The notes below the pieces were generated by a model. It was not told the origin of the DNA. It was given only the letters and a program-made list of their open reading frames with translations, and did not search any database. A program made the translations under genes and the position numbers. Shown here piece after piece: positions 12,019 to 35,546 of a stretch of 64,000 nt of DNA (positions within the stretch are counted from its first letter, which is position 1; each line of letters starts with the position of its first letter). The stretch is from Phycisphaerales bacterium (lineage in GTDB: Bacteria > Planctomycetota > Phycisphaerae > Phycisphaerales > UBA1924). Location: assembly GCA_007693785.1 (NCBI GenBank), contig RECY01000025.1, positions 1 through 64,000 of the forward strand, written 5' to 3'.

Positions 12019-12019
12019 C

Positions 12020-14308: not shown

Positions 14309-14366
14309 GCTCCTCGCAAGCCGCCGCCAACCGCGTTCACCACACCAGCCACGGCCGCACGACCGA

Positions 14367-17270: not shown

Positions 17271-17370
17271 CAACCTGACCCCACAACACGGCGCGTGAAC
17301 ACCACAGAACGCCAAACCGCCAGACGCCCGGGCCTGACTACCTGGCCGATGGAACCGACGCCGACCGTCC

Positions 17371-18348
17371 TCAGAACCCGGGCTCGATCCCCACGTTCTG
17401 AAGCTCCTCACGCGCCACGTCCGCCGGGAGCGGGAAGTAGCCGTGACGGATCACCGCGTCCTGGCCGTCGCGGCTGAAGATCAGCTTGATGAACTCCCGG
17501 CGGAGCGGGTCCATCTCCTCACGCGGATCCTTGTTCACATAGACGTACAGGAACCGGGCGATCGGATAATCCGCCGTCAGCGCGTTCTCGTACGTCGGCT
17601 CGAACGCCCCGTACCCCGCGTCGATGCTGAGCGCCTTCACGCCCGACGTCGTGTACCCCAGCCCCGAGTACCCCATCCCGTACAGGTCCGTCCCCACCGC
17701 CTGCACCACCGAGCTCGACCCCGGCTGCTCCTTTACCGTCGCCTTGAAATCGTGGTTCCCGAGCGCCACCTGCTTGAAGTAGCTGTACGTCCCGCTCGCG
17801 CTGTTCCGACCGTAGAGCGACACCGGACGCCCCGACCAGTCCGCGTCGGTCACGCCCAGGTCACCCCAGGTCATGCTCGGCCCGTTCACGCTGAACACAC
17901 GCTCCACCTGCTCCAGCGTGATCACGTCCAGCGGGCAGTCCTTGTGCACGAACACCGCCAGCGTGTCGATCCCCGTCCGCATCAGCGTCGGCTCGTACCC
18001 GTACACGCGACGGAACGCGTCGATCTCGCTCGGGCGCATCCGACGGCTCATCGGCCCGAACTGCGCCTGCCCCTGCGCCAGCGCCGGCGGCGCCGTCGCC
18101 GAGCCCTTCCCGTCGATCTCCACCCGCACGCCCGGGTAGACGCGCACGAACTCGTCGCCCCACGCCGCCATCAGGTTGTTCATCGTGTCCGAGCCGATGC
18201 TCATCACCGTCCCCGAGACGCCCGTCGAAGACCGGTACGCCGGCAGCGTTTCATCGACACGCGGCTCGCCCGCCGAAACCGACAACGCGAGCGCACACAC
18301 CACCGCGCCGCACACACCGAGCACTCGAGCCAGACCCAACCGCGCCAT
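17371..18348 (-). CDS. pstS: Phosphate-binding protein PstS
   Basis: A 325-residue periplasmic phosphate-binding protein. The signal peptide MARLGLARVLGVCGAVVCA continues LALSVSAGEP. Ligand-binding signatures are SIGSDTMNNLMAAWGDEF, DGKGSATAPPAL, FGPMSRRM and GRNSASGTYSYF. It captures phosphate and delivers it to PstC-PstA. The ATG at 18348 has a strong AAAGGGG ribosome site. An upstream extension of the frame is rejected because it would put 45 non-signal residues ahead of a good signal peptide. First gene of the pstSCAB operon; phoU and phoBR are not in the window. Confidence 0.95.
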   Translation of the reverse strand: MARLGLARVLGVCGAVVCALALSVSAGEPRVDETLPAYRSSTGVSGTVMSIGSDTMNNLMAAWGDEFVRVYPGVRVEIDGKGSATAPPALAQGQAQFGPMSRRMRPSEIDAFRRVYGYEPTLMRTGIDTLAVFVHKDCPLDVITLEQVERVFSVNGPSMTWGDLGVTDADWSGRPVSLYGRNSASGTYSYFKQVALGNHDFKATVKEQPGSSSVVQAVGTDLYGMGYSGLGYTTSGVKALSIDAGYGAFEPTYENALTADYPIARFLYVYVNKDPREEMDPLRREFIKLIFSRDGQDAVIRHGYFPLPADVAREELQNVGIEPGF

Positions 18349-18474
18349 GAGCGAGCCCCTTTCCAAACCAACCCCACAACCACTGGCGACCAAGGACAGA
18401 CCGACCGCGCCCCGGACACCCCAGCCGCCCGATCGCGAACGACAGATATCCGTACACACACGCCGCGGGCTCGT

Positions 18475-18491
18475 TGTTAACACCGCGTGAA
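18475..18491 (-). promoter_or_regulatory. Possible Pho-box-like half-sites upstream of pstS
   Basis: On the minus strand TTCACG and TTAACA are spaced exactly 11 bases apart about 130 bases before the pstS start. Eleven-base phasing of TT-x-AC half-sites is typical of PhoB/PhoP operators. Only two half-sites are visible and the match is loose, so this is a weak candidate. Confidence 0.25.
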
Positions 18492-18521: not shown

Positions 18522-19136
18522 TTACCGGCCTCCCGACCCGCGCCCGGAGCCCCGGGCCTCCCCCGTTCCGCCCAGGCGGATCGGATGCGGGCGTCCCTCG
18601 ACCGGCAGCCCCGTCCGTTCCCCGTAGAAACGAACCACAAGCTCGAGCGATTGCGCCGGGAACACGTCCGCACCGGGCCCGCCCGCCTCGATCACGCTCA
18701 GGTCGAACATGTACGCCGGCCCGGGCTGCAGGAGCTGGCGCGCGGCGCGAGCCTCCGAAGCCGGAATCATCCAGCGCAGCTTTTCCTCTTCCGCCCCGGG
18801 CTCGCGCAGCAGAAACTCGAACGACCCCGTTTCCCAGAACGGCAGCGGGTACTGATCCATCGAGCCGAACAGGTAGACCACCACCGTGAAGCGGTCGCCG
18901 TGCCCGTTGCCCATCGTGTCCACCGGCACCGTCGAGCTCACCAGCACGCGGCTGGCCGTCGTCCCCGCCGGCGGCGGGCGCAGGCGGGTGCCCTCTCCCT
19001 CATCCACCGGCACGCTCGTCGCACACCCCCCCAGCACCGCAGCCGCCGCCAACCCCGCCAGCAAGCCGCGAGGCCACCCGGCGAACAAGCCGTTCCCTAA
19101 ACACCCGCGCCGAACGCTCTGGAGCCGGTTCATCAT
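18522..19136 (-). CDS. Lipoprotein encoded directly after the giant secretin
   Basis: A 204-residue predicted lipoprotein. The hydrophobic segment GLLAGLAAAAVLGGC ends in a lipobox with the acylated Cys at about residue 38. The mature domain contains VPVDTMGNGHGDRFTVVVYLFG, a beta-sandwich-like stretch GSFEFLLREPG followed by LRWMIP, and AYMFDLSVIE. The C-terminus is low-complexity Gly/Arg. Its ATG overlaps the stop of the giant secretin by four bases, so it is translationally coupled to it. Lipoproteins in that position of T2SS operons can be pilotins that bring the secretin to the outer membrane. That role is an inference from position only; the sequence resembles no pilotin I know. Confidence 0.75.
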   Translation of the reverse strand: MMNRLQSVRRGCLGNGLFAGWPRGLLAGLAAAAVLGGCATSVPVDEGEGTRLRPPPAGTTASRVLVSSTVPVDTMGNGHGDRFTVVVYLFGSMDQYPLPFWETGSFEFLLREPGAEEEKLRWMIPASEARAARQLLQPGPAYMFDLSVIEAGGPGADVFPAQSLELVVRFYGERTGLPVEGRPHPIRLGGTGEARGSGRGSGGR

Positions 19137-22100
19137 TCAAAGCTCCGGTTCCGACGGATCCGCAGACCTTCCGGCTTGATCATCCCCTTGTCCAGATCCT
19201 CCCGGACCGCTTCCTCGACGTCGATCCCCAACTCCTTCAGCGTGCGGTACACCGGGCTCTCCTCGAGCGCCCGACGCACCGCGACCGGGTTCTCCACCTG
19301 ATCGATCGCCGCGGCCGTCAGACGCTCCACCAGGCGGTCCGCCTCCGAGCCCTCGCCCGGGATGATCCGCGGCGTCAGGATCACCAACAGCTCCGTCTTG
19401 ATCTTCGCCGCCTTCGTCGAGCGGAACAGATTCCCCACAAACGGCAGGTCCCCCAGCAGCGGCGTCTTCGTCCGGCGTTCCTCCATCTGCGTCTGGATCA
19501 GCCCGCCGATCACGATCGTCTGCCCGTCGCGGATCGTCACCGTCGTGTCCACCTGACGCGTCGTGATGATCGGGCTCTCGAAGTCGTCAGAGATCTGCGT
19601 CGTCCGCGCGCTGACCGTCGAGATCTCCGGCTGAATATTGATCTGCACGTACCCGTTCGGGTTGATCGTCGGCGTCACCTCCAGGATGATGCCCACGTCC
19701 CTGCGCTCCACGTTCGCACGCGTCAGCCCCGACTCGAACCGGTCGATGTTGCTCACGATCGCCACGTCTTCACCGACCTGGATCCGCGCTCGCTCGTTGT
19801 TCTTCACCGTCACCTGCGGGCGGCTCAGCACCTCCAGCTTGCCCTGCGCCTCGAGCGCCCGAACCAGCAGCGAGAAGTCCGCGCTCTCCACCGTCAGGTT
19901 CGGCACGCCGAGGGCCGTCGCGACCGTCGCGCCCGCGCTCAGCGCCCCGAAGATGTAATCATCCCCGCCGATCGGCCCGCCCGTGACGTCCAGCCCCCAC
20001 TCGCGGCTTGAGTCCAGCGTCACCTCCGCCAGCAGCACCTGGATCATCACCTGCGGCGGCGAGGCGTCCAACTCGTCGATGATCGCCGCCACCGTCTCGA
20101 TGTACCGGGGCGACGCCGAGACCACGAGCATGTTGCTCTTCTCATCCCCGACGACCGTCACCTCCTGCTCGAGGCGGCGCAGCACGCTCCCGGCGACTTC
20201 GGGCCCGAGCGTCGCGCGCAGCCGCTCCGCCTCACCGGAGAAGTACCGCGTCAACGTCTGCTCGATCTCCGCCGCCTTCGCGTTCTTTAAGTGGTAGACC
20301 AACCGCTCCCGCTCGGCCGCCTCGATCGTGTCCAGTTCGTCCACGACGGCCGCGACCAGCTCGAGATACTCCTGCGTCCCGCTCACCAGCAGCGTGTTCG
20401 TCCGCGGGTCGATCGTGATCGACAGCTCCTGGCGGTCGTCCGGCACCGCCGTCAGCGACGTGCCGAAGCCGAACAACCCCTCCCCGCCCTCGAGCCCGGC
20501 GCCGTTCGCCCCGCCGGGCGCCAGCCCCTCGCTCATCTCCGCGTCGAGCCCGCGCCGCGTCGGGATCAGCACGTACCGATCCCCCTGACGGCGCAGGTTA
20601 AAGAGGTCCCGCAGCACCTCCGCCATCTGGCGCGCGTCGGCGTTGGTCAGCCGGAACGTGCGGATCCGGCGCTCCCCCGCGTCGGTCGTGTCGAGGTCGC
20701 TCACGATCGCCGCGATGAACGTCAGGATGTCCGGCGGCGCCGCCACCACCACCGAGTTCGTCCGAAGCTCCGGGCTCACCCGCACCTGGCTGCGGATCTG
20801 CGCATCGATCTCCGCCTCCGTCGGCGGCAGGCCCCGCGCGTCCTCGATCCCCTCCGCCAGACGCTGTCGCACGAACCGCAGGCGCGTCGCCTGCGCCGAC
20901 GTCCGCCCGTCCACCGCGCGCCCGCTCAGGATCTGCTGGAGCATGTTGACCACTTCGAGCGCGTTCGCGTTCCGAAGCTCGATCCGGCGAACCTCCTGCA
21001 CGCTCGCCGAGCGGGTCTGGTCGAACTGCCCCGCCAGTCGGCGCACCGCCTCGACGTCCGCCGACGTCCCGCTCACGATCAGCGCGTTCAGACGCTCGTT
21101 CGCGACCACCGTCACCGACCCCGCCCCACGCTTGCGGTTCTCAGGGGTCACGTACAGGTCCTGCACCGCCCGAGCGACCTCGTCCGCGGAGCCGGCCGTC
21201 AGCTGCACCAGCTCCGTCTGCTCGTCCTGCCCGAACGCGAGCGCGTCGCCGCTGAGCGCCTCGATCAGCTCCCGCACGATCGCCAGGTTCTCGTCGCTCG
21301 CCGCGATCACCAGCGAGTTCGAGCTCTCCACCGCCTCCACGCTGAACGTGTCGGCCGGGCTCGACACCCCGCCCGCACGACGCGCACCCTCGATCCGGTC
21401 CCGCATCAGGCTCGCGATCTTCGGCGCCAGCGTCCGCACATCACCGTCCGGCACCTGCACCACGTGCAGCTTGACCGAGTAGTTCGCGTCCGCCTGATCC
21501 AGCGTCTCGATCAGGCTCTCGATCACCTCAAAGCTGCGCGGGCTCGTCGAGGCGATCAGCGCGTTCGTCCGTCCGTCCGCGGTGATCACCAGCCGGTCCT
21601 CGGGGCGCAGCGCCCCGGCCGTGTCCCGCTGGCGGAACACGTCGCGCACGATCTCCGCCGCACGCCCGGCCGCCGCGTGACGCAGCGGGTACACACGCAC
21701 ACGGTTGCCCGCGAACGCCTGCTCCACGTCCAGCATCTCCGCAAGCTCACGCACCACCGCGATGTTGTTCGGCGTCCCCACGACGATCAGCGCGTTCAGG
21801 TCGCTCTCCGGCACGATCGTCAGCCCGCTCATCGGCACGAACAGGTCGCTCTCGATCACACGCGACAACGCCGCGGGCTCTTCGCCCTTCACCGACGAAC
21901 GCACCGCGCGCAGGCGCCCCACCTGGCGGCGCAGCGCCCGCGTCTCCGGCGTGTCCGCCAGCCCGCCCACCAGCACCTCGCGCAGCGTCCGCGCCAGCGT
22001 CTCGGCCGACGCGTGCTCGAGCTGGATCAGCGTCGGCTCCACCCACCGGGCCGAGGACGCGCTGTCCAGGTCCTTCACCAGCACCTCGACCAGCGCCACC

Positions 22101-25100
22101 GCCTCCTCGCGACCCGCGACCACCAGCGCGTTCGTCCGCTCGTCGATCGAAACCGCGATCTCGCCCGCCAGCGCACGCCCCGTCGTTGTCGTCGGCAGCC
22201 CCTGGCGGTTCGTCCCCGGCACGCGACGCAGCGCGTCGCCGGTCCGGAACAGCTCCAGCACCACGCCCCGCACGCGCTCGGCCGCCGCCTGCTCCAGCGG
22301 GAAGATCCGCACCACCACCGCGTCCCCGATCGGCAGCGTGTCCAGCATGTGGATCACCGCCGACACCGCGCGCACGTTTGCGGCGCTCGACGCGATCGCC
22401 ACCGAGTTCGTCTGCGCGTCCGGGATCAACCGGATCGGCGTCGAAAGATCCAGCGAGACCTCCGGGTCCTTCGCCCCGCTCGCGAGCAGCTGGATCCGGC
22501 GCACCTGCTCCGCGAGCGCCCGCGACGGCGACGCGCCCTGGCCCGAGCCGTCCGCGTTCAGCATCTCCCGCAGCGTGCGCACCACACCGTCGGCCGACGC
22601 CAGACGCAGCGGGACCACCGCCATCTCCTGACCCGCCCCCGCCGGCTCCGCGTCGATCGCACGCACCAGGGCCGTCAGCGACGTGCCGTCCGCCGGGTTC
22701 GCCACGATCGCCAGCGCACGACGGCTCACCAGCGGCACGATCCGCACCGGCTCGGCCACCACACCCGGGCGATCCGCTGGCTGCGGCTGCGTCACGCCCA
22801 TCTGCTCCAGCAGCTGACGCACCGTCGCCGGGTCGTTGTGCTCCACGTCGATGATGAACACGCCCTGCCCGGGCCCGAGCATCGCCCCGCCCGGCGCACC
22901 GCCCTCGCCCGGAGCCGCCGCGACCGCGCCATCCAGCTCCCGCGCCACCCGCTCGACCTGCTCGAACAACTCCGAAGACGCGGCGATCACCAGGCTGTTC
23001 GTCCCGCGATCGACCTCGATCGCCAAGGGGCTCCCCACGCGATCCGCCTCGGCGCTGAACGTCCGCACCAGCGTGTCGCGAAGACGAGCCGCCGGCGTCC
23101 GCTCCAGACGCACCACGCGCGTCCGTACCGCGGTGTCGCCGCCCACGCGTTGCAGGCTCTCCGCGAGCGCGCGGATCTGCGCCAGCTCGCTCTCATCGGC
23201 GCGCACGATCAGCGTCCGCGTCGCGTCATCGCCCACGATCACCGGCGACCGCGCGTTCATCCCCGGACGCCCCTGCACGAACAGCTCGCGCACGCGAACC
23301 GCGAGCTGACTCGCACGCATCCCCGACACCGAAATGATCGTCGGCTCCCGCAGACGCACCACCTCCGGCACGTCCAGCTGCTCCACGATTCGGCGGATCC
23401 GCGACAGGTCCTCACGCCCCGCGAACACCACCAGCGCGTTCGTCTGCACCTCCGCCGAGACGGTCGGCGTCCCCGACGCGTCCACCAGCACCGGCGGCGG
23501 CAGCAGCCCCTGATCCCGCCCGCCCCGCGCCCGCAGCTCACGCTCTACACGCAGCTGCTCCTGACGGAACTGCTCCTCCAGCGGCGCGCGCAGCCCCTCG
23601 TTCAACGCCCGCGCCACGCTCGACGCGTCCGCGTGGCGCAGCGGGATCACCACGAGCTGCTGGCTCGTGTCGTACAGCTCGTTATCCAGCGTGCTCAGCA
23701 GCGCGCGGATGCTCGCCCACTCCTGCTCGGCCGCCGAGATCACCAGGCTGCGGCTCGCCGGGTCCGGCACGATCGTCACGTCGCGAGCCGCCGGCGTCGC
23801 GGCCTCCGGCGCCATCCGCCCGTAGAACACACGCAGCGCCCGCGCCGCCTGCTCCGAATCCGCGAACTCCAGCTTCACAAACTCCGTCCGACGATCCGTC
23901 CCGTCCTCCACGTCCAGCTGCGCGACGATCGCCGCGATCTCCGCGATCTCGTCCGCCGCCGCCGACAGCAGCAGCGTGTTGCCCTGCAAAGTCGACTCCA
24001 CCCGGGGCTCCGGCGTCCCCTGCGCCCGCGGGCGACCCCGCAGCATCTGACCCAGCGTGAACACCACGTCGTCGGCCATCGCGTTCTGCAGCGGGATCCG
24101 ACGGAACTCGGTCAGGCTCCGCACCGGCTCGGTGTCCAGACGCTCGATCTGCGCCATCACCAGCTCGATCGACTCGGCCTGACCCGTCAGCAGGATCGTG
24201 TTGCTCCGCGGCACCGGCGTGATCCGCACCTTCACCGTCTCCGGCAACGCCGAACGCAACGCCGTCGCCACCTCCTGCGCGCGCGCCGAGCTCAGCGACA
24301 CCGTCACCATGCTGCTCGCGCCCTCACCAGGAGGAGCGTCAAGCTGGCTGATCAACGCCTCCACACGCGGCAGCACCGTCTCCGGCGCCGAAACCACCAG
24401 CGTCGCGCTCGAGCCCTGCGGCGTCACGATCACACGCTCCTCGGCCGAGCCCGTCGACGGGAACATCGCCCGAAGCGTCGCCGCCGTCTCGTTCGCGAGC
24501 GCGTGACGAAGCAGGTAGACCTCCACCCGCCGATCCTGCCCGAGCTCCGGCTGGTCGATCTGCGCGACCATCTCACGCAGCAGCGCGACCTCTTCCTCCG
24601 CACCGCTCACCAGCAGCAGGTTCCCGTCCAGCGAGCCGACGACCGAGATCAGGTCCGCCGCCAGCCCCTCGGCCTGCGCACGCTCGGCGAAAAACCGGCG
24701 CAGGCTGTTCGCCGCACGGTCCGCACGCGCGTGACGAAGCGTGATCGACGTGAACGTCACGCCCTCGCGCTCGGCCGCCGTCGCCAGCTCATCAATAAAT
24801 CCCGCCGCCTGCTCCACCCGCTGCGGCGGCCCGATCAGCACCAGCAGACGCCGGCGACGATCGACCTCGATCTTCACGCTGTTCGGATCCTCACCCCGCC
24901 ACCAGGGCCAGTTCGGGTCCGAGAGCGCACGCTGGATCACGTTCCGGAGCGCGTCCAGGTCGGCCGCGTCCACGCGCACGGCACGCACCACCTGCTGGTT
25001 CAGATCGCTCGGCTTGCGGTCGAGCTCGCGGATGATCGCCTCGATCGTCCCGAACGACTCGCCCTGCCCGATCAGCACCAGCGCGTTGAGCGCCTCGTTG

Positions 25101-28100
25101 CTCTGCACAAAGACCGTGTCCTGCTCGATCCCGCCCGCGGCTCGCTCGCGGTTGCCCCACTGACGCTCGTACTGCAACTCGTTCGTGAACGACTGCACCG
25201 TCGGCAGCAGCTCGCTCACCCGCGCGTGCTCGAGCCCGATGATCTTGAACTGCAGCTGGCGAGCCTCGGCCGGTGCGTCGAACGTCGCCGCCATCGCGCT
25301 GAGCTGCTCGAAATCCTCATCGCTCGCCGCGATCACCAGCGTCCCGCTCCGCCGATCGCCCGTGATCGCGACGCCCGCCGCCGCGCGACCGCCGCGCCGA
25401 CCCGCCGCCGCACGCTCGCGGTCCTGAAAGAACGCCCGCAGCGTGCTCGCGACCTGCGCCGCGTCGGCGCGTTCCAGCTTTACCGTCCGCACCGGCAGCC
25501 CGCTCGCGCCCGAGATGTCCACGTCCGCCACGACGCGACGGATCTCCTCCAGTTCCCCCTCCGGCGCGCGCACCACGAGCAGGTTCCCGCTCTCGGGCGT
25601 CGAGATCGCGATCTTCGCCCGCCGGGCCTCGTCGCGACCGATCACAACCTCCTGAATCACCCGTGCCACGCCCTGCGCCGACGCCTCGCGGACCTGGATG
25701 ACCTCGAGCACCGTGTCGGCGTCGGTCGTCGCCGTGTCGGCCGCCGCGATCAGGTCGATCGCCTGCGCGTGCTGCGCCTCAGTCGCCGTCAGCAGCAGCG
25801 TGTTGGTCCGTTCGTCGGGCACAAAAATCGCCCGCGGCGGGCGCTCGCCTTGGCTCGCGTCCCGCTGCGCATCGAACAGGCGCTGCATCGTCCGCGACAT
25901 CTCGCCTGCGCCCGCGTGCTCCAGCGTGTAGCGCTTGATCGCCGCCTGCTCGCCGCCCGAGCTCTGGTCGATCAGTTCCACGAACCGGTCGATCACCCGC
26001 ATCGTCGCATCGGGCGCGCTCACGATCAGAGCCGTCCGCGAGGGGTCCAGCGAGATGCTGACGGTTGAAGGATCGATCACGCCGCGGACAACCTCGCCGT
26101 CTTCATTGGCAAACGCCACGTCCAGCCCGCGGACACGCCGCGCCTGCCGCCCGACCGGCTGCGCGCTCAAGAGGTCCCGCACCGACGCGAGCGCTCGGTC
26201 CGCCCGCACGTTCCGAAGGCGGTAGATCTTGACCGTGACCGACTCGGCCGCCCCCGGCTGCGCCAGCGCCGCGATCAAACCACGCAGCGACTCAAAATCC
26301 GCGTCGTTCGCCCACACGATCAGCCCGGCCTGCTCCGGGTCCGGCTGCACCGCGACCGCGCCCGTGAACCCGCCCGGGTTCGCGTCGCTCGCCCGACCGA
26401 TCCGCCCCGCCGTCTGCTGCACGATCCCCGCGATCGCCCGCGCGTCCGCCCCGCTCGGCAGGCCGACCAGCCGCACCGCGACCGGCTCGGCCGGCATCTG
26501 CGATTCGAGCTCCCGCGCCAGCGCCGCGACCCGCTCGGTCGCACGCGGCGAGCCGATCACCAGCAGCGTGTTCGTCGCCTTGTCCACCGCGATCGTCACG
26601 TCCGCCTCGTCGTCGCCGTCATCATCCTCAACGCTCGCCACGCTCAGGCCGAGCAACGCCTCCATCCACGACGACGGCACTGCGCCAGGCAGCACGTGGC
26701 GCTCGCGACCCGACGGCACGCGCGAGCCGCGCTCGTCGCGCTCCGGCCGCGCGCCGCGCTCCATCAACTCCTCGGCCCCAATCACCTCGACGCGTACCCC
26801 GCCGCGCTGCTCCATCAGCCGGCGAAGCTGCTCGGCCAGCTGCCCCGCGTCGGCGCGCGAGCGGTCGATCCGCACCGCCCGCATCTGGCGGCTGCTCGTC
26901 AGCGTCGCTTCGTCGAGCTGCGACACCAGCCGCTCGACCTCTTCCATCTGCGCGCGATCGGCGCGCACGATCAGCGCGTTGCTCGCCGAGTCCACGCGCA
27001 CCACCGGCGGGCGGACGCCCCCTGCGTCATCCTCAAACACAGCCGCGATCGTCGACGCCAGCTCGCCCGCGTCCGCGTTCTTCAGCGTCAGCACACGCAC
27101 CGACCGCGGCCCGCCCGAGCCGTCCGGACCGCCCTCGGGCGCGTCCAGCTCCGCCACGACCTGCTCCGCCAGCTCCAGCACGCCCGCCGGCCCGGAGACC
27201 ACGATCGCGTTCAGCCGGGGCTCCGCCTCGACGCGCACCGATCCCGCCGAGTCGTCCCCGAATCGCTCGATGTACCCCACCCGCGCCCACGCCGGGAGCG
27301 TGTCCACCGTCCGCTCCTTGCTCAGCACGCGCTGCACGACCGGCGCGAGCGCCTCGGCCCGCGCGTGCTTCAGCACCAGCGTCCGCACCGCGACGCCGTC
27401 GGGCGAACTCGCGCGGTCCATCTCGCGCACCAGTTCCGCTGCTTTCGCCACCTGCTCCGGCGTGCCCGCGACCACCACCGCGTTGCTCCCGGGCTCCGGC
27501 GTCACGGTCGGGCGCGGGTCGCCCGGGCGGGCCGAGCCTGTCAACGCCGCACGAACGGCTTCCGCCACGCCCGCCGCCGAGCCTTCCCGCAGCGTGAACA
27601 CGCGGCTCTCCCGCACCGACCCGCTCGCGGGCTCATCCAGTGTCGCGATCAGCTCGGCCGCACGGGCGGCCAGCTCGCTCGGCGCGCTCACCAGCAGACG
27701 GTTCCCCTCCGTGTCCGCGTTCACACGCGGCGCCTGCACATTCAATCCGGCGCGAACCGCCGCCTGCAACGACTTCGGCCACGACGCCCGGTCGCTCAGC
27801 ACCTGCTGCACCGTCCCCGCGACCGCCGACGCCGACGCGTGCGACAGCTCGAACACGCGCAGCGTCACCGCCGGCATCGAGGGCGTCCGCTCGTCGAACT
27901 CCGCCAGCAGGCGCAGCGCCTCGCCGAGGCGACCCTCCGGGCCGATCGCGACCACCGCGTTGATCGACGACTGCGCGACGAGTTCCACGCGACGCCCCTC
28001 GCCGGCCGTTGCCGCGAGCACGCGCGAGACCGTCTCGGCAAGGTTCGACGCGTCCGCGTTCGCGGGCGTGTAGCTCGCGAAGCTGCGGCCGCCCGCGCCG

Positions 28101-31100
28101 GCGGGCTTGTCGAGCGTCTCCACGACAGCCTTCGCGAGCGCGAGCTTTGCGCTCGGCGCGCTGACGATCACCGTGTTCGTGCGCTCGTCCGCCTCCACGC
28201 GCACCGCGGGCATCTGACCGGGGTTCTGACGCTGCCACCACTGCGCCTGGCGGGGATCGTCGTCGAGCAGCAGGCGCTCCAGGCTCGGCGCGAGCTCCGT
28301 CGCCCGAGCGTGCTCGAGCGTGAACGACTCCACCGCGGGCGTCTGCGCGTCACTCGGCGGGCGGTCCAGCGGCTCCACCAACGCCGTCACCGCCTCCACG
28401 TCCGAGGGCAGGCCCGTGACGAGCACCGCGCCCGCGCCCGCCGCGACGACCGAGACCGGCCCGCCCGCGGGCAGGTCCATCCCGGCAACGGCCGAGGTCA
28501 ACGCCCGCGCGACGTCCTGCCCGCTCACGAACGAGAGCGGCACCACGCGCACCGTCGCGCTCGCCGCCCCGGGCCCGTCGGTGTCGAGCGCCTCGATCAG
28601 CTCCGTCGCGATCGCCTGAATCGCCTCGGGCGCGGAGATGATCAGCGTGTTGCTCCCGCGATCCGCGGAAACATCTAGCAGGCTCTCGACCGTCCGCTGC
28701 GGGTCGATCTCGCCCAGCTCGCGCCGCTCGCGCAGACGCTCACTCAGCACGCGATCGAGCAGCGGCGCGATCCGCTCGGCCCGCGCGTGGCGCAGCGCGT
28801 ACAGGCGCACCACGCCCGCGTCGCCCGAAGGCTTCTCGTCCAGTTCCGTCAGCACGCGATCGACGGCGCCGAAGATCCCCACCGGCCCGGAGACCACGAC
28901 CGAACGCGACGCCGGCTCGACGTCGACCGTGATCGCGATCGCCGCGGCCGAGGCGCCGGCCGTGCCGTGGAGCGCGCCAGTGCGCGCGAGATTGTTCAGC
29001 GTGCGCGCCACGGCCGCCGGATCCGCACGAGCGACGCGGTAGGTCCGGACCTCGACATCCTCGGCCAAGCGAGCCGTGTCCAGGCTCTCGACGATCCGCT
29101 CGAACCCGCTGAGCCGCTGCGCCGGCGCGTCCACGATCAGCGAGTTCGTCGCCGGGTCGGCGCGCACCACAACTTCCTTCGGCGGCTGCAGGTCCGGGCG
29201 CGCCTGACGCGTCCGCGGGTCCACCGGCACCGGCGGCTGCGGGAACATCTCGTCGATCGTCCGAGCCAGATCCTCCGCCCGCGCCACGCGCAATGGGAAA
29301 ATGCGGATCTCCCGCCCGCTCGCATCGAACGCCTGCGCGTCGTTCAGGCTCTGCACGATCGACTCGATCTCGGGCAGGAGGTCCGGGTGCGCGCTCACGA
29401 TCAGCGTGTTCGTGCTCGGGTCGGCCTCGACGCTCACCGGGCGGGCCGTGCGGTCCTCCGTGCGACGCCCGTCGTAGCTCCGGCGCAGCACCTGCGCCAG
29501 GTTCGACGCGTCGGTCGAGCGCAGGCGCAGGATCCTCAGCGGCGGGCGGTCGGCCGAACGCTGCGCATCCAGCGAGCGGACGAGCTCTTCAATAATTGGG
29601 AACTGGTCCGGGCGGGCCGCGACGAGGATGGAGTTGGTCTGCTCGACCGCCTCGAACACCGGCTCCGGCCCCCCCTGAGCGGTCATCGACCGGTTGGTCG
29701 CGCTCAGCTCGCGCAGGAACGCGACGACCTCGACGGCCTGCGCGTGGCGTACCTCGAGCATCCGCAGGTCGCGCCCCGGGCCGACGCCGCGCTCGAGTTC
29801 CTCCAGCACGCGCGAGAACCGCGCCATCCCCTCCGCGTCCGCAACCACCAGCAGCGCATTCGCCGACTGGTCCACCGTCACGTCGATCGGCTCGGCCCCC
29901 GGCACGCCCGAAACCTGCGCCTCGTACAGCGTCATCGCCAGGTCGCGCACCTCGCCCGCGTCCGTGCTCGCGATCGGGAAGACCCGCAGCCCGCGCTCGA
30001 CCGGCACGGCCGACAGGTCCCGCAGGATCTCCTCCACGCGCGCAAACGTCGTGTCGTCGCCAGCGACGATCAGCGTGCCCGAACGCGGCTCGCTCTCCAC
30101 CACGACCTGCACCGGCTGGCGACCGGGCTCGCCAGGCGCCGCCAGGTTCCCCTGTCGCGCCAGTGCCGTCAGCGTGCGCACGATCGCGTTCAGGTCGCCC
30201 CCGGTCACGCGGTAGGTCCGCAGCTCCGCGACGGGCGGGAGCTGCACAACGTCAAGCTTCGCGGCCAGCTCGCGCAGGCTCTCGATCCGCTCGGCCGGCG
30301 CGTCGATGATCAGGCTGTTGCTCGACGGGTCTGCCGAGACCGTCACCTCCTTCGGCTCGCGTAGCCACGGCATCGGGCGACCGAAACGGTCCATCGGGAT
30401 CGGGGGCTCGGCGTACAGGCGGTCCATCGCCGTCGCGACCGCCTCCGCGCGCGCCACCTTCAGCGGGAAGAGCACCGTCTCGCGCGCCGGCCCGTCGCGG
30501 TCGCCCCGGTTCAGGTCCTCCACGAACGTGCGGATCTCGTCGAACAGGTCCGCGTGCGCGCTCACGATCAGCGTGTTCGTCCCCGCGTCAGCTCGCACGT
30601 CGACGGGCTTCGCGGCCCGCTCGGCCTGCGGGCGACGGCTGTACTGCTCGCTCAGCATCCGAGCGATCGCCGCAGAATCGGCCGTGCGCAGCTGCAGCAT
30701 CCGCAAAGGCGGCTGCGTCGCCGGCTCGATCGTGTCCAGGCGGCGCACGAAGTCCGCGATCAGGCGGTGCTGCGCTTCCTCGGCCGTCACCAGCAGGCCG
30801 TTGGTCCGCTCGATCACGCGGATCGTCGGCTCCGGCACGGCCCGGGCCGGGTCGATCGGGTCCGCCTCCGACAGCAACTCCCGCAAGGGGCCCGCGATGT
30901 CACCCGCGTTCGCCTGCGAGATATCCAGCAAACGTGTCGTCCGGTCCGGCGGCATCAGGCGCTGCGACGCCTCGAGCGCTTCCTGGAACATCCCCAGCCC
31001 GCGGGCCGTCCCGCGGAGCAGCAGCGACCCGCTCGCCGGGTCGATCGTCGCCTCCACCTCGCCCGCCTCGCCCTCGGGCACGCCCGCGGCCCTCGCCCGG

Positions 31101-32959
31101 TACAGCTCCTGCGCGCGCGCCACCGTCCGCGCGGGGTCGCCCGTCGTCAGACGCACCACGCGGAACTCCCGCGCCACACGCTCGGAGGCGTCCAGACGCT
31201 CGATCAGCTCTTCAAGAATCGCGAACTGTTCCGGCTGCGCGCGCACGATCAGCACGCCGAGGTCGTCGACCGCGTCCATCTCCGGCGCGCGATACGCCAC
31301 GCCCTCGGGCCCGTCGAGGAGCGGCTTCGCGAGGCGCGCGAGCTGCTCGGCGAGCACGCTGGGGCGCAGGCGCTCCGGCTCGTACCGGCGCGTCTCGCGC
31401 TCCACGATCACCGCGTCCCCGGCCGAGCGGATCAGCCGCTCGAACCGCTCCAGCCCGGCGCGCGAGGCGACGAGCGTGAGCGAGCCGGAGTCTTCATCGA
31501 GCTGGGCCGTCACCGGATCACGCTCGGCGTCGCCGGCGAGCGTGTCAAGCTCTCTTGCACGCTCGAGCAACCGGGCCGCCCGGGCGGGATCGAGGCGGAG
31601 CGTGCGGACCTCGCGGTCGACGTCCGCGGGCACGTCGAGCCCGCGGAGCAGGTCCGCGAGCGCGTCCACGTCGCGAGAGGGGCCGGCGACGATGAGCCCG
31701 CGGCCGTCCGGCGCGACCGCCGTTCGGAGCGCCTGGGTCTGACGCGGCGTCAGCAGTCGGCGCGCGATCTGCTCGGCGCGCCCCGCCTCCACGTGCGACA
31801 GACGCAGCGTCTGCGCGACCGTCTCGGCCGAAGCCTGACGAGGCTCGCCGCCTGTGGTCGGGTCGATCTCCCCGATCAACGCCGCGGCCTGCGCGAGCAT
31901 CGGCGCCGGGCCGACGACCGTCACTTTGTTCACGTCCGCCAGCGGCAGCACGGTCGGGCGTCGCCCCGATGCCACCGCGCCGAAGAGCCCGTTCAACGCC
32001 TCCGCCGCCCGGTCGGCAGTGATGGTCTCGAGCGCGAAGGTCATCATCTGATGCTCGCCGCCCAGGCCGCCCTCGGGGCGGTCGAGCAATGCGACCAGCT
32101 CGGCAACGGTGTCGATGCGGCTCTTGGGCCCCACCGCGATCACGCTGTTGGTCCGCCGGTCCGGCTGGATGCTGATCCCGCCGATGTCGACCTCTTCCAC
32201 CGTCCGCTGCTGCCCGTCGCGGTCGATGATGATCCGCTGGATCCGCTGCCCCACCAACCCGCGCAGCGCCTCGACCACCGCCCGCGCGTCGGCGTGCTCC
32301 AGCGGGAAGAGCTTGAACTCGCTGTCCACCGGACGCACCGCGTCCACCGCCTGCACGATGTCGCGGATCCGGCGCGCCTGGGCCGCCGTCTCGACCACGA
32401 GCACCATGTTCTGCACCGGGAGCGGCGTCACCCGCCCGTGCTCGCCCACCAGCGGCTGGATCCGCTCGGCGACCTGCTCGGCCGTCGCGTTGCTCAGCGG
32501 GATCGTCACCGTCACCATCTCGTCGGGCGGGAGCCCATCGAGCGCGTCGAGCTCCGCGACCCGCGTCGGCTTGCGCGCCGCGTCCTTGAGGTTCGCCAGA
32601 TAAAGGAAGCCGCCGTCGTGGCGGAGGCGCCGGTCGAAGGCCGCCAGGTTCAGGTTCAGGATCGTCATCGCCTCGTCGAAGGCGTAGTCCTGCCCGCTGA
32701 CGAAACTCATCCGCCCGTTGGGCGCTGGGGCCTCGCGGATGATGGGCAGGCCCGTCCTGCGGCTGAAGAAATCCAGCACCTGCTCGAACGTCGCGTCCTG
32801 AAAATTGAACCGCAGACGCACCGAATCGATCGCGGGCGCGTCACCGCCCTCGACACGCTCGGCTGCCGGTTCGGGCTCGGCTTCCACCGAGACCGCGAAC
32901 CCCGAGGCTGCGATCAATGCCGCAGCCACGACCCCCGACGACAACTTCCTGTGTCGCAT
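19133..32959 (-). CDS. gspD: Giant type II secretion secretin (GspD-like) with about 50 N-domain repeats
   Basis: A 4,608-residue secretin, roughly seven times the usual 650-750. The signal peptide MRHRKLSSGVVAAALIAASG continues FAVSVEA, with cleavage likely before EPEP. An N0/STN-like domain follows (about residues 45-130, RFNFQDATFEQVLDFFSRRT). Residues 148-4303 are an unbroken array of about 50 units of 65-120 residues. Each unit has an opening strand, a helix of the type ADAxxVAxxL, a strand ending TNxLIVxA, and a helix ending in a pattern like IxxLIxxLD. The last 305 residues are an ordinary secretin pore (MIQVLLAEVTLDSSREWGLD, EVLSRPQVTVKNNERARIQ, TIVIGGLIQTQ, KTPLLGDLPFVGNLFRS, LLVILTPRII). 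The ATG at 32959 has a perfect AAGGAG. Last but one gene of the gsp operon. Confidence 0.93.
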   Translation of the reverse strand: MRHRKLSSGVVAAALIAASGFAVSVEAEPEPAAERVEGGDAPAIDSVRLRFNFQDATFEQVLDFFSRRTGLPIIREAPAPNGRMSFVSGQDYAFDEAMTILNLNLAAFDRRLRHDGGFLYLANLKDAARKPTRVAELDALDGLPPDEMVTVTIPLSNATAEQVAERIQPLVGEHGRVTPLPVQNMVLVVETAAQARRIRDIVQAVDAVRPVDSEFKLFPLEHADARAVVEALRGLVGQRIQRIIIDRDGQQRTVEEVDIGGISIQPDRRTNSVIAVGPKSRIDTVAELVALLDRPEGGLGGEHQMMTFALETITADRAAEALNGLFGAVASGRRPTVLPLADVNKVTVVGPAPMLAQAAALIGEIDPTTGGEPRQASAETVAQTLRLSHVEAGRAEQIARRLLTPRQTQALRTAVAPDGRGLIVAGPSRDVDALADLLRGLDVPADVDREVRTLRLDPARAARLLERARELDTLAGDAERDPVTAQLDEDSGSLTLVASRAGLERFERLIRSAGDAVIVERETRRYEPERLRPSVLAEQLARLAKPLLDGPEGVAYRAPEMDAVDDLGVLIVRAQPEQFAILEELIERLDASERVAREFRVVRLTTGDPARTVARAQELYRARAAGVPEGEAGEVEATIDPASGSLLLRGTARGLGMFQEALEASQRLMPPDRTTRLLDISQANAGDIAGPLRELLSEADPIDPARAVPEPTIRVIERTNGLLVTAEEAQHRLIADFVRRLDTIEPATQPPLRMLQLRTADSAAIARMLSEQYSRRPQAERAAKPVDVRADAGTNTLIVSAHADLFDEIRTFVEDLNRGDRDGPARETVLFPLKVARAEAVATAMDRLYAEPPIPMDRFGRPMPWLREPKEVTVSADPSSNSLIIDAPAERIESLRELAAKLDVVQLPPVAELRTYRVTGGDLNAIVRTLTALARQGNLAAPGEPGRQPVQVVVESEPRSGTLIVAGDDTTFARVEEILRDLSAVPVERGLRVFPIASTDAGEVRDLAMTLYEAQVSGVPGAEPIDVTVDQSANALLVVADAEGMARFSRVLEELERGVGPGRDLRMLEVRHAQAVEVVAFLRELSATNRSMTAQGGPEPVFEAVEQTNSILVAARPDQFPIIEELVRSLDAQRSADRPPLRILRLRSTDASNLAQVLRRSYDGRRTEDRTARPVSVEADPSTNTLIVSAHPDLLPEIESIVQSLNDAQAFDASGREIRIFPLRVARAEDLARTIDEMFPQPPVPVDPRTRQARPDLQPPKEVVVRADPATNSLIVDAPAQRLSGFERIVESLDTARLAEDVEVRTYRVARADPAAVARTLNNLARTGALHGTAGASAAAIAITVDVEPASRSVVVSGPVGIFGAVDRVLTELDEKPSGDAGVVRLYALRHARAERIAPLLDRVLSERLRERRELGEIDPQRTVESLLDVSADRGSNTLIISAPEAIQAIATELIEALDTDGPGAASATVRVVPLSFVSGQDVARALTSAVAGMDLPAGGPVSVVAAGAGAVLVTGLPSDVEAVTALVEPLDRPPSDAQTPAVESFTLEHARATELAPSLERLLLDDDPRQAQWWQRQNPGQMPAVRVEADERTNTVIVSAPSAKLALAKAVVETLDKPAGAGGRSFASYTPANADASNLAETVSRVLAATAGEGRRVELVAQSSINAVVAIGPEGRLGEALRLLAEFDERTPSMPAVTLRVFELSHASASAVAGTVQQVLSDRASWPKSLQAAVRAGLNVQAPRVNADTEGNRLLVSAPSELAARAAELIATLDEPASGSVRESRVFTLREGSAAGVAEAVRAALTGSARPGDPRPTVTPEPGSNAVVVAGTPEQVAKAAELVREMDRASSPDGVAVRTLVLKHARAEALAPVVQRVLSKERTVDTLPAWARVGYIERFGDDSAGSVRVEAEPRLNAIVVSGPAGVLELAEQVVAELDAPEGGPDGSGGPRSVRVLTLKNADAGELASTIAAVFEDDAGGVRPPVVRVDSASNALIVRADRAQMEEVERLVSQLDEATLTSSRQMRAVRIDRSRADAGQLAEQLRRLMEQRGGVRVEVIGAEELMERGARPERDERGSRVPSGRERHVLPGAVPSSWMEALLGLSVASVEDDDGDDEADVTIAVDKATNTLLVIGSPRATERVAALARELESQMPAEPVAVRLVGLPSGADARAIAGIVQQTAGRIGRASDANPGGFTGAVAVQPDPEQAGLIVWANDADFESLRGLIAALAQPGAAESVTVKIYRLRNVRADRALASVRDLLSAQPVGRQARRVRGLDVAFANEDGEVVRGVIDPSTVSISLDPSRTALIVSAPDATMRVIDRFVELIDQSSGGEQAAIKRYTLEHAGAGEMSRTMQRLFDAQRDASQGERPPRAIFVPDERTNTLLLTATEAQHAQAIDLIAAADTATTDADTVLEVIQVREASAQGVARVIQEVVIGRDEARRAKIAISTPESGNLLVVRAPEGELEEIRRVVADVDISGASGLPVRTVKLERADAAQVASTLRAFFQDRERAAAGRRGGRAAAGVAITGDRRSGTLVIAASDEDFEQLSAMAATFDAPAEARQLQFKIIGLEHARVSELLPTVQSFTNELQYERQWGNRERAAGGIEQDTVFVQSNEALNALVLIGQGESFGTIEAIIRELDRKPSDLNQQVVRAVRVDAADLDALRNVIQRALSDPNWPWWRGEDPNSVKIEVDRRRRLLVLIGPPQRVEQAAGFIDELATAAEREGVTFTSITLRHARADRAANSLRRFFAERAQAEGLAADLISVVGSLDGNLLLVSGAEEEVALLREMVAQIDQPELGQDRRVEVYLLRHALANETAATLRAMFPSTGSAEERVIVTPQGSSATLVVSAPETVLPRVEALISQLDAPPGEGASSMVTVSLSSARAQEVATALRSALPETVKVRITPVPRSNTILLTGQAESIELVMAQIERLDTEPVRSLTEFRRIPLQNAMADDVVFTLGQMLRGRPRAQGTPEPRVESTLQGNTLLLSAAADEIAEIAAIVAQLDVEDGTDRRTEFVKLEFADSEQAARALRVFYGRMAPEAATPAARDVTIVPDPASRSLVISAAEQEWASIRALLSTLDNELYDTSQQLVVIPLRHADASSVARALNEGLRAPLEEQFRQEQLRVERELRARGGRDQGLLPPPVLVDASGTPTVSAEVQTNALVVFAGREDLSRIRRIVEQLDVPEVVRLREPTIISVSGMRASQLAVRVRELFVQGRPGMNARSPVIVGDDATRTLIVRADESELAQIRALAESLQRVGGDTAVRTRVVRLERTPAARLRDTLVRTFSAEADRVGSPLAIEVDRGTNSLVIAASSELFEQVERVARELDGAVAAAPGEGGAPGGAMLGPGQGVFIIDVEHNDPATVRQLLEQMGVTQPQPADRPGVVAEPVRIVPLVSRRALAIVANPADGTSLTALVRAIDAEPAGAGQEMAVVPLRLASADGVVRTLREMLNADGSGQGASPSRALAEQVRRIQLLASGAKDPEVSLDLSTPIRLIPDAQTNSVAIASSAANVRAVSAVIHMLDTLPIGDAVVVRIFPLEQAAAERVRGVVLELFRTGDALRRVPGTNRQGLPTTTTGRALAGEIAVSIDERTNALVVAGREEAVALVEVLVKDLDSASSARWVEPTLIQLEHASAETLARTLREVLVGGLADTPETRALRRQVGRLRAVRSSVKGEEPAALSRVIESDLFVPMSGLTIVPESDLNALIVVGTPNNIAVVRELAEMLDVEQAFAGNRVRVYPLRHAAAGRAAEIVRDVFRQRDTAGALRPEDRLVITADGRTNALIASTSPRSFEVIESLIETLDQADANYSVKLHVVQVPDGDVRTLAPKIASLMRDRIEGARRAGGVSSPADTFSVEAVESSNSLVIAASDENLAIVRELIEALSGDALAFGQDEQTELVQLTAGSADEVARAVQDLYVTPENRKRGAGSVTVVANERLNALIVSGTSADVEAVRRLAGQFDQTRSASVQEVRRIELRNANALEVVNMLQQILSGRAVDGRTSAQATRLRFVRQRLAEGIEDARGLPPTEAEIDAQIRSQVRVSPELRTNSVVVAAPPDILTFIAAIVSDLDTTDAGERRIRTFRLTNADARQMAEVLRDLFNLRRQGDRYVLIPTRRGLDAEMSEGLAPGGANGAGLEGGEGLFGFGTSLTAVPDDRQELSITIDPRTNTLLVSGTQEYLELVAAVVDELDTIEAAERERLVYHLKNAKAAEIEQTLTRYFSGEAERLRATLGPEVAGSVLRRLEQEVTVVGDEKSNMLVVSASPRYIETVAAIIDELDASPPQVMIQVLLAEVTLDSSREWGLDVTGGPIGGDDYIFGALSAGATVATALGVPNLTVESADFSLLVRALEAQGKLEVLSRPQVTVKNNERARIQVGEDVAIVSNIDRFESGLTRANVERRDVGIILEVTPTINPNGYVQINIQPEISTVSARTTQISDDFESPIITTRQVDTTVTIRDGQTIVIGGLIQTQMEERRTKTPLLGDLPFVGNLFRSTKAAKIKTELLVILTPRIIPGEGSEADRLVERLTAAAIDQVENPVAVRRALEESPVYRTLKELGIDVEEAVREDLDKGMIKPEGLRIRRNRSFE
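26891..28816 (-). repeat. Two-domain superunit repeated four times (repeats 17-24)
   Basis: Long domains (17, 19, 21, 23; about 83-95 residues, with an insertion before the second strand that in 19, 21 and 23 contains Trp) alternate with short domains (18, 20, 22, 24; about 72 residues). The region is about 642 residues, or four units of about 160. Confidence 0.65.
28817..29995 (-). repeat. Five-domain superunit, copy 2 (repeats 12-16)
   Basis: The second copy, about 393 residues, only one residue different in length from the first. The same domain order and the same domain-specific insertions are kept, indicating that a block of five domains was duplicated as a whole. Confidence 0.75.
29996..31171 (-). 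repeat. Five-domain superunit, copy 1 (repeats 7-11)
   Basis: Repeats 7 to 11 of the secretin array (about 392 residues) match repeats 12 to 16 one for one. The fourth domain in each copy has an insert with PPIP or PPVP, then D and a KEV strand (EPKEVTVSADPSSNSLIIDAP against PPKEVVVRADPATNSLIVDAP). The third shares TNTLIVSAH. Confidence 0.75.
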
Positions 32960-32979: not shown

Positions 32980-34017
32980 TCACCGCGAGTCTACACGCCC
33001 GAGCGATCGTCGATCGGCCAGGGTCTGCCCGGCAGAAAGCTCGTACCGAACGCCGCCCGCTTCGAAGACCGCCCGCTCGCCCGAAGCCGAGACCAGCGCG
33101 AACCCCAGAAGCCCGTCACCCACCGCCAGCACGCGGGTTTGTCGGTTGCCCGTGTGCTCGAACCACACCTCCACACCGTCTTCCCCTTCCGAGGGCGACC
33201 GGTGGCCCGCGGGCGGGACCGTTTCGATGATCCCAACCACCCGCCATCGGTCGTACGCCGGGGGCGGAGGGGGTGGCGGCGGAGGAGGCGGGGGCGGCGG
33301 AGCCTCGGCGACCCGTATCGGCTCGGGCTCCGGCTCCGGCGGGGGCGGGAGGAACGGGTTCGGGCGCGCAAACGCTTGCCAACGCTCGCCCGCGGCCTCT
33401 GACGCCGCGACCGGAGGCGGGGCCTCGGGCCCGGCGAGATCCGGCATGAACGCTGAGGCGACTTGAACTGTCAGCGTGTAGACCGACCGGTCACGACCTT
33501 CCGGACGGATCGAAAACCGATCGACCCGGTGGGCCCAGGCTTGCGCCTGGACGCCGGCGAGGGCCGCCAGGCAGGCGTCCAGCGTGCCCTTGGCGCTGAG
33601 CTGGCCCTGGATGACCACAAAGTCCGGGCGTTCGCGCAGGATCCGCTGCATCCCGCGCCCCACGCGCTGGCGGGCCGCGGGGTTCTCCATCCCGCGAGGC
33701 GAGCTCGTGGTCACGACAATGTCGGTCAGGGACGCATCGGCGGCGAGCTCGCTCAGGCGCGTTCGGAAGCGGTGGACCGCCGCGTCCCCGTCGCGTGCGA
33801 GGGTCGTCTTGCCGATCTCGTCGAGCCGAGCGCGGACGCGAGCGGCGGTCGCGACGATCTGCTGGCGTTCCTGGACCGCGGCGAGCTCGGATTGCAGCTC
33901 CGCCCGGAGCGCGGCCGCGGGACGCGCGTAGACGAACAGCCACCCCGCGCCGAGAAGCCCAATCAGGACCGCCGCACCGGCGAGGAGAACCAAACGGGTT
34001 CGGATCGCGGGACTCAT
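32980..34017 (-). CDS. T2SS inner-membrane protein: GspM/PilO-like part fused to a GspC/PilP-like domain
   Basis: A 345-residue bitopic protein. TM near the N-terminus (LVLLAGAAVLIGLLGAGWLF), coiled coil (LRAELQSELAAVQERQQIV), then a PilO/GspM-like ferredoxin-type domain to about residue 210. Next comes a proline-rich linker containing 14 consecutive prolines (33259-33300). The last 90 residues (RWRVVGIIE, VEVWFEHTGNRQTRVLAVGD, YELSAGQTL) look like the HR/PilP domain that contacts the secretin N0 domain. No separate gspC is present, so this fusion probably supplies that function. It overlaps gspL by four bases and ends 20 bases before the secretin ATG. The fold assignments are by pattern, not by search. 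Confidence 0.75.
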   Translation of the reverse strand: MSPAIRTRLVLLAGAAVLIGLLGAGWLFVYARPAAALRAELQSELAAVQERQQIVATAARVRARLDEIGKTTLARDGDAAVHRFRTRLSELAADASLTDIVVTTSSPRGMENPAARQRVGRGMQRILRERPDFVVIQGQLSAKGTLDACLAALAGVQAQAWAHRVDRFSIRPEGRDRSVYTLTVQVASAFMPDLAGPEAPPPVAASEAAGERWQAFARPNPFLPPPPEPEPEPIRVAEAPPPPPPPPPPPPPPAYDRWRVVGIIETVPPAGHRSPSEGEDGVEVWFEHTGNRQTRVLAVGDGLLGFALVSASGERAVFEAGGVRYELSAGQTLADRRSLGRVDSR

Positions 34018-35546
34018 CGCGTGCCCACCTCGCTGGCCGTCGCCGGCGGGGCGGCGGCGGGCGTTGAAAGGACGAACGAGAACCGATCGGGCACGTCCGC
34101 GCCCTGCGTGGTCACGCGGTAGACCCCCGCATCGATGAGGCGCTGACGGAGCGCGTTGGCGACCGAACGCTCGCGGACGCGCCCTTCCAGATCGAGCCGC
34201 ACAGCACGGTCGACCGTCCAACGCCCCTCGTAATAGGTGTCCCGTCGTGTCGGTCGGTAGACCGGCGACGCCTCGACGCTCCCGCCGATCGAGTCCAGGA
34301 CCGCTTGGTCCCCGGGCGGGAGCTTTTCGCGGAGGCTCGCGAGGTGGGCGATCCAGTCCGGATCGCCCTCGGCCCACCGCTCGACGTGGTTGAGGCGCGC
34401 GTCGGTCCGGAAGAACTCGACGACCTGACCGGAAAGATCGTCCTTCTGCGCGCGGACCGTTGCGACGCGGGCCGACAACGCGTCCAGCTCGCGCTGCGCG
34501 AGCAGCCACCCGCCGGCGGCAAGGATCCCGACCAGCGCCACGACCATCATCGCGCGCACACGGACCGCGGCGTTCGGATCCGGCGGCTTGCTCGGGTGCA
34601 GGAAGTCCAGTCCCTGACGCCCGACGCTCTGCGCCAACGCGAGCCCGACGAGCGGGGCGAGGCGGGCGATCGTGCCCGGGTCGCACGACTCGGGCCAGAC
34701 CGCGTCCGCCGGATCGAGCACCACCGACGGACGCTCGGTCGTTTCGGCACACCGCTCGGCGATCTCCGCGACCGCTCGCTCGGCCCCCACCACCGCGACC
34801 GTCACCGACGCGCCGCCCGCGGCCTGGAGCAACGCCGTCCGCGCCGCCTCCACCGCGACCGTGCGCTCCAGTGTCGCGCCCGGCGCCAGCTCGGTCTCGC
34901 GCGCCAGCAGCAGCTCGCCGCGGTCCACCGTGACAAACTCCGCCCAGCCCGGGCCTGTCGCGACCGCGAGCGTCGGCCCGTCGATCGACGCGCGACGCAC
35001 GAGCTCGCCCGTGCCCTCGGCCCGCAGACGCACGCCCGCCAGACGCAGACCCGCCGACGACGCCACCTCACGCACGAACGAGAGGCGGTCCTCCGGGAGC
35101 GCCGCCGCGAGGATGGTCCGCTCGGCGTTTGCTGGCGTGTTCGCGTCGTCCTCATGATCGGTCTCGTGACGGGCCTCGCCCTGGTCGCGCGGGATCACGC
35201 AGTCAAAGACGACGTCTTGCACGGGCACCGCCTGGGCGCGGAGCAGGGCCAGGCGAGCCGCGCCCGGCGTCTCGTTCGGGAGCAGCGCCGCCGGCACCGG
35301 CACGCGCTTGAGCACAACGTTCCCACGCGGGAGCGCGAGCACGGTGCGCTTCGTCCGCACGCCCGCGTCGTCGAGCGCCACGCGCACCCATCGCCCGAGC
35401 TCGCCGGACTCGGCGGGATCGACGTCGCCCGGCCTCTGGACCGCGACAGTGCGCGCGACCCGCGCGACGCCGGCACGGACCGAGAGCTCCACGGCGCTCA
35501 GCCCCGTCGGTTCCAGGCACAACACCAGCACGCTGCTTCCGCTCAA
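34014..35546 (-). CDS. gspL: T2SS assembly protein GspL (PilM-PilN-like)
   Basis: A 510-residue protein of the inner-membrane platform. The N-terminal 310 residues resemble the actin-like PilM/GspL cytoplasmic domain (VLVLCLEPTGLSAVELSV, KRTVLALPRGNVVLKRVPVP, LSFVREVASSAGL). A single TM follows (AMMVVALVGILAAGGWLLA). It is followed by a coiled coil and a periplasmic ferredoxin-like domain with YYEGRWTVDRAVRLDLEGRV. In known systems the cytoplasmic part binds the GspE ATPase and the periplasmic part binds GspM. It overlaps both neighbours by four bases. Confidence 0.85.
   Translation of the reverse strand: MSGSSVLVLCLEPTGLSAVELSVRAGVARVARTVAVQRPGDVDPAESGELGRWVRVALDDAGVRTKRTVLALPRGNVVLKRVPVPAALLPNETPGAARLALLRAQAVPVQDVVFDCVIPRDQGEARHETDHEDDANTPANAERTILAAALPEDRLSFVREVASSAGLRLAGVRLRAEGTGELVRRASIDGPTLAVATGPGWAEFVTVDRGELLLARETELAPGATLERTVAVEAARTALLQAAGGASVTVAVVGAERAVAEIAERCAETTERPSVVLDPADAVWPESCDPGTIARLAPLVGLALAQSVGRQGLDFLHPSKPPDPNAAVRVRAMMVVALVGILAAGGWLLAQRELDALSARVATVRAQKDDLSGQVVEFFRTDARLNHVERWAEGDPDWIAHLASLREKLPPGDQAVLDSIGGSVEASPVYRPTRRDTYYEGRWTVDRAVRLDLEGRVRERSVANALRQRLIDAGVYRVTTQGADVPDRFSFVLSTPAAAPPATASEVGTR

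Follow-up and report, generated by a model that had tools for sequence, protein, structure and literature searches.

A Phycisphaerales type II secretion secretin with fifty N-type units, a candidate for a very long periplasmic conduit

Secretins are usually viewed as stacks of only two to six rings. The window analysed here, the first 64,000 nucleotides of contig RECY01000025.1 from a Phycisphaerales bacterium (GCA_007693785.1), encodes on its minus strand a protein of 4,608 aa (19133–32959; 494 kDa, pI 5.0, no cysteine) in which an earlier note had seen about 50 N-type domains ahead of a single pore. Is this a genuine secretin, and what could a secretin of such length build in the periplasm?

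The gene is one continuous frame, as that note had described it, running from an ATG at 32959 to a TGA at 19135–19133 with no internal stop in 4,608 codons; the strand is our addition. The ribosome site called good in the note is also there, with GGAAGGAG directly 5' of the ATG. GC3 stays at 0.90–0.95 along the whole length, indicating that the frame is coding throughout, and the long frames on the opposite strand are by-products of high GC. The other genes of the window hold 39 cysteines in 5,969 residues, against zero in the 4,608 of this protein; most giant secretins carry 0–5 per 3,500–4,500 residues.

The domain architecture is that of a secretin with an outsized middle. A signal peptide read from the sequence (residues 1 to ~34, MRHRKLSSGVVAAALIAASGFAVSVEA; 32858–32959) precedes an N0 domain (residues 45–129; 32573–32827) recognized by a profile match to GspD N0-N1-N2 and by its predicted fold. 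Profile search matches the protein to 5wq7 from N0 on, and the predicted N0 fold superposes on 4jtm_A at 2.4 Å over 79 of 81 residues and on 6hcg_A with a Z of 14.4; the Pfam N0 model found no match in the protein at E 10. With a profile derived from the array's own repeats, 50 contiguous units are detected over residues 152–4298 (20066–32506; median spacing 77 residues), with the pore directly after. As a control, E. coli GspD (650 aa) yields exactly 3 hits with the same profile, the N1–N3 that a standard GspD carries beyond N0. The Secretin_N search that the note had proposed returned 49 Pfam stretches, together with one Secretin domain (PF00263, 162 bits, cut-off 27.5) at residues 4368–4533 (19361–19858). 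Signal peptide, N0-like domain and one normal pore were thus all recovered, and "about 50" repeats became exactly 50. The last 75 residues (19136–19360) are, by position, a candidate pilotin-binding S domain.

We regard it as near certain that this protein is the type II secretion system (T2SS) secretin GspD, comprising N0, 50 N-type units and a pore. That identification rests on PF00263, on the GspD equivalog TIGR02517 (1244.9 bits, cut-off 351.35, a sum over 27 stretches of which the best spans profile positions 147–594) and on GspG, GspF and GspK in the same operon. The operon is a single run of mostly overlapping minus-strand genes in the order gspF-G-H-I-J-K-L-M-D. It begins with GspF (40072–41253; PF00482 9e-50, TIGR02120 1e-88) and the major pseudopilin GspG (39286–39825; TIGR01710 107.6 bits, cut-off 88.85). 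There follow pseudopilins like GspH (38312–39235) and GspJ (37054–37854), and between them a weakly matched GspI-like one (37851–38315), then GspK (35543–37057; T2SSK 8.8e-11). A 510-aa protein in the GspL position (34014–35546) matches PilM_2 weakly, and a 345-aa protein in the GspM position (32980–34017), with one transmembrane segment, a proline linker and a small C-terminal beta domain, matches no family model. Family models thus hardly recognize these last two proteins (32980–35546), whose places in the operon are conserved. The gene order is kept in other genera, and that of K, L, G and F also in Verrucomicrobiota. We rejected an identity as PilQ: TIGR02515 does exceed its cut-off at 412 bits, as the repeats add up, against 1244.9 for the GspD model, Pfam finds no AMIN domain in the protein at E 10, and the operon carries GspG and other T2SS genes.

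On its downstream side gspD overlaps, at an ATGA, a gene for a 204-aa lipoprotein (18522–19136, minus strand) that matches neither Pfam nor NCBIfam. Most relatives within the order retain this gene, and we consider its product a candidate pilotin. Directly behind the T2SS operon lies pstS-pstC-pstA-pstB for phosphate uptake (11083–18483, minus strand). Many genera of the family preserve a linkage of pstS or pstC to the giant gspD, which may reflect a tie between secretion and phosphate supply. Control through a Pho box was considered and dropped, as no convincing motif of that kind occurs near pstS or gspF. The gspE gene lies outside the giant-gspD operon, and several gspE-like genes elsewhere all score below the curated cut-off. 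In the T2SS, the HR domain of GspC binds N0 of GspD. No gspC was identified, so docking of N0 at the inner membrane is assumed here. By eye, the GspM-position protein ends in a domain with an HR-like pattern; that domain matched no PDB entry, nor E. coli GspC by profile, and we did not adopt that identity.

We asked where the extra units sit relative to the canonical ones by making a separate profile for each of the 50 unit positions and scoring canonical N1, N2 and N3 against them. Unit 1 (residues 152–206; 32342–32506) gives the top-scoring profile for N1 from all three canonical proteins tested, E. coli GspD and two ordinary-sized GspDs belonging to the same order. The N2 and N3 of the two order-mates score best with unit 48 and unit 50, the latter closing the array together with unit 49 (residues 4100–4298; 20066–20660); E. 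coli N2 and N3 prefer unit 37, so the placing of N2 and N3 depends on the order-mates. Most simply, a canonical stack would have been lengthened between N1 and N3 with both ends intact.

The spacing within the array is equally regular. Linkers measure 7–14 residues in 47 of 49 cases (median 9), the exceptions being one of 15 and one of 23, the latter after unit 40 and not common to all families. Corresponding linkers are 6 and 8 residues in E. coli GspD and 6–8 in ordinary GspDs generally, and in the other giant families tested (37–62 units) 95–98% fall within 7–12. Unit length varies almost wholly at one loop, and some units of the window protein, such as 25, 38, 42, 44, 48 and 49, bear large insertions.

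Comparison with relatives reveals an array that has been held in place. Against five 50-unit relatives, from other genera in the same family, the best match of 47–50 of the 50 units lies at the identical position, and the position-matched unit always outscores any other unit of the own protein; mean unit identity is 47–52% to the ortholog versus 36% to the best paralog. Units 7–11 and 12–16 are a tandem duplication of a five-unit block (28838–31162; copies up to 51% identical), both copies mapping onto the same five units in a 45-unit relative. Together with a four-unit step in verrucomicrobial arrays, this duplication indicates that arrays expand several units at a time and are retained for long periods thereafter. 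Across seven species pairs, pN/pS is below 0.6 for every compared unit, with medians of 0.10–0.32 (0.08–0.13 for the pore), implying that selection keeps the whole array length. Because close relatives maintain an almost identical set of 50 domains in unchanged order, the conserved length of about 50 units seems to matter for how the secretion machine works.

How might 50 such units be arranged? The explanation we favor, at a probability of roughly one half, is a GspD whose N0-N1-N2-N3-pore stack, lengthened in the middle by block duplications, forms a very long conduit of about 51 rings. N0 and N1 would remain at the inner-membrane platform and N3 and the pore in the outer membrane, with each inserted unit forming a ring with its counterparts in neighboring subunits. 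At a rise of 2.5–4 nm per ring, about 51 rings would give a tube of roughly 130–200 nm, with a predicted mass of ~7.4 MDa for 15 subunits, through which a long pseudopilus would drive folded enzymes across a locally widened periplasm. The canonical ends, the constraint on every compared unit and the position-by-position match to relatives all speak for it. The short, constant linkers and the confinement of insertions to one loop would likewise favor a regular stack over loose beads. Three consecutive units, as predicted, fit the XcpQ N0-N1-N2 crystal structure at 3.4 Å over 160 residues; AlphaFold2 places units relative to each other with low confidence (pTM 0.34 and 0.47). The earlier note's stack of more than 100 nm follows if the units pack as in known secretins, which the constant 9-residue linkers and the canonical end units favor; we infer the stacking itself. 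The fullest version of the proposal, in which all 50 units form rings and make a continuous tube of at least 130 nm and ~7 MDa, the longest secretion conduit known, with a matching pseudopilus and local widening of the periplasm, falls a little short of even odds.

The organism's own genome speaks against a periplasm that is this wide throughout. Its three other secretins have 0–3 detectable N units, and it has a flagellar L-ring gene, which together point to a periplasm that is, at least locally, of ordinary width. A periplasm of 130 nm throughout is thus unlikely, and either widening is local or the array is packed differently. One of those secretins, on contig 2, is encoded by a frame of 1,307 codons; its pore is MshL/PilQ-like, and no recognizable N units precede it.

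Different packing is the strongest competitor, although we consider it unlikely: rings would form only near both ends, with the middle units folded back, coiled, or wrapped around the channel as a cage or lattice in a periplasm of ordinary or moderately increased width. The ordinary-length secretins and the L-ring gene fit this arrangement, as does the low confidence of inter-unit placement, and the insertions in units such as 25, 38, 42, 44, 48 and 49 could face outward. However, linkers as short and constant as those of ring-forming N1-N2-N3 leave little room to turn, and the window protein offers a single possible hinge, the 23-residue linker after unit 40, which some families lack.

Bead strings could instead serve as a flexible tether or spring coupling the outer-membrane pore to the inner-membrane platform across a periplasm of variable width. 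The planctomycete periplasm is indeed variable and strongly enlarged by invaginations, as seen in another class than Phycisphaerae (PMC5394234), and the low pTM values would suit such flexibility. Position-specific conservation of all units and constant linkers would be unexpected in a mere spacer, which makes this improbable. More improbable still is a polyprotein cut into separate periplasmic array products and a normal C-terminal secretin, given the uniform linkers, the lack of long disordered junctions and the canonical identity that N0 and N1 retain at the far end.

An assembly or gene-prediction artefact, conceivable for a window from a draft genome of 45 contigs, has next to no probability, as the units are under purifying selection, the array DNA lacks near-identical repeats and frames of the same type occur in independent genomes. 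The longest DNA self-match inside the array is 66% identical over 447 bases and identity does not exceed 83% in the remaining matches longer than 50 bases, so weak that collapse or expansion during assembly, which the earlier note had named as grounds for doubt, is implausible. Eight one-contig genomes encode giant frames of 3,776 to 4,933 aa, and CP070772.1 encodes one of 4,808 aa.

The length survey that the note had suggested places the window protein in a family instead of leaving it a one-off. Sampling of 298 Phycisphaerae genomes gave at least 78, from many families, with a matching secretin frame of 2,000 aa or longer; this is a lower bound among the matches listed, and contig breaks also reduce it. 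Unit number ranges from 24 to 62 across the giant loci read, and some clades have 24–39 units with the same operon, so that no single length is required. The longest secretin seen is a 6,169-codon frame with 62 units (locus L189, 551–19058). Six giants from two other families (L185–L188, L195 and L196; f8 and f22) have 7–11 cysteines and array stretches of 200–450 residues that the unit profile does not match, possibly strongly diverged units or else domains inserted into the array. Two records titled Cyanobacteria bacterium and Leptolyngbya (L080, L082) also carry giants and look like mislabelled Phycisphaerales. Among ~270 sampled genomes of other Planctomycetota classes, we found no matching frame above ~1,500 aa. 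This leaves a scaffold around crateriform pores, an alternative raised in the earlier note, unsupported, since those pits were studied in Planctopirus limnophila, a member of the class Planctomycetia (PMC5394234).

Beyond the phylum, Verrucomicrobiota MAGs encode giant secretins of 2,600–4,300 aa, often with 42 units, and frames above 3,000 aa are listed for 9 of 188 genomes of the verrucomicrobial class. In a pore-domain tree the giants cluster, with verrucomicrobial ones grouping with some Phycisphaerae families, and one 42-unit verrucomicrobial array (L216) aligns along a large part of its length with the array of L042, a Phycisphaerales locus. Tree and parallel units suggest gene transfer between the phyla or shared descent. 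A one-to-one unit match between verrucomicrobial arrays and that of the window did not hold up: only part of the C-terminal third aligns, mainly with family f2, and most of the two arrays therefore grew separately. Giant GspDs are an old, coherent subfamily.

Its closest described counterparts are the T2SS GspDs (PulD, XcpQ/XcpD, EpsD; TIGR02517), which share the signal peptide, N0, N rings, pore and T2SS operon, and whose N1, N2 and N3 resemble the end units of the window protein. They have three N units and ~650 aa, whereas the window protein has 50 units and 4,608 aa, about seven times the usual size. Ordinary GspDs also occur within the same order: loci L206 (818 codons) and L207 (873 codons), from families f5 and f6, encode N0, N1–N3 and a pore but have only three N units and occupy a separate branch of the pore tree. 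The giant is missing in most sampled f5 and f6 genomes. Frames of 1,300–1,500 codons from other Planctomycetota (L203–L205) have 5–9 detectable N units, a mild lengthening elsewhere in the phylum; they lack a large array and form a distinct branch.

In the open-access papers searched, we found no described secretin of giant multi-unit design, in agreement with the earlier note. The largest described relative that we found has six N rings. This is PilQ of Thermus thermophilus, among the largest characterized secretins, whose six stacked rings measure 35 nm in a periplasm of ~70 nm (PMC5745081, PMC4463427). Here too, additional N rings have lengthened a secretin in a bacterium with a wide periplasm, but this one serves a type IV pilus and DNA uptake, not a T2SS, and has six rings compared to the 51 predicted for the window protein. 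On the PilQ scale, 51 rings would give at least 130 nm.

A widespread family with 24–62 ring-type units, each retained over very long periods, shows that secretion machines can have a periplasmic section on quite another scale. One of two things is predicted: at secretion sites the periplasm exceeds 100 nm in depth, or ring domains pack in a new way. The length series from 24 to 62 units offers a natural test of whether ring number sets the distance spanned. Either outcome would inform views of envelope organization in planctomycetes and Verrucomicrobiota and of enzyme export by these polysaccharide degraders.
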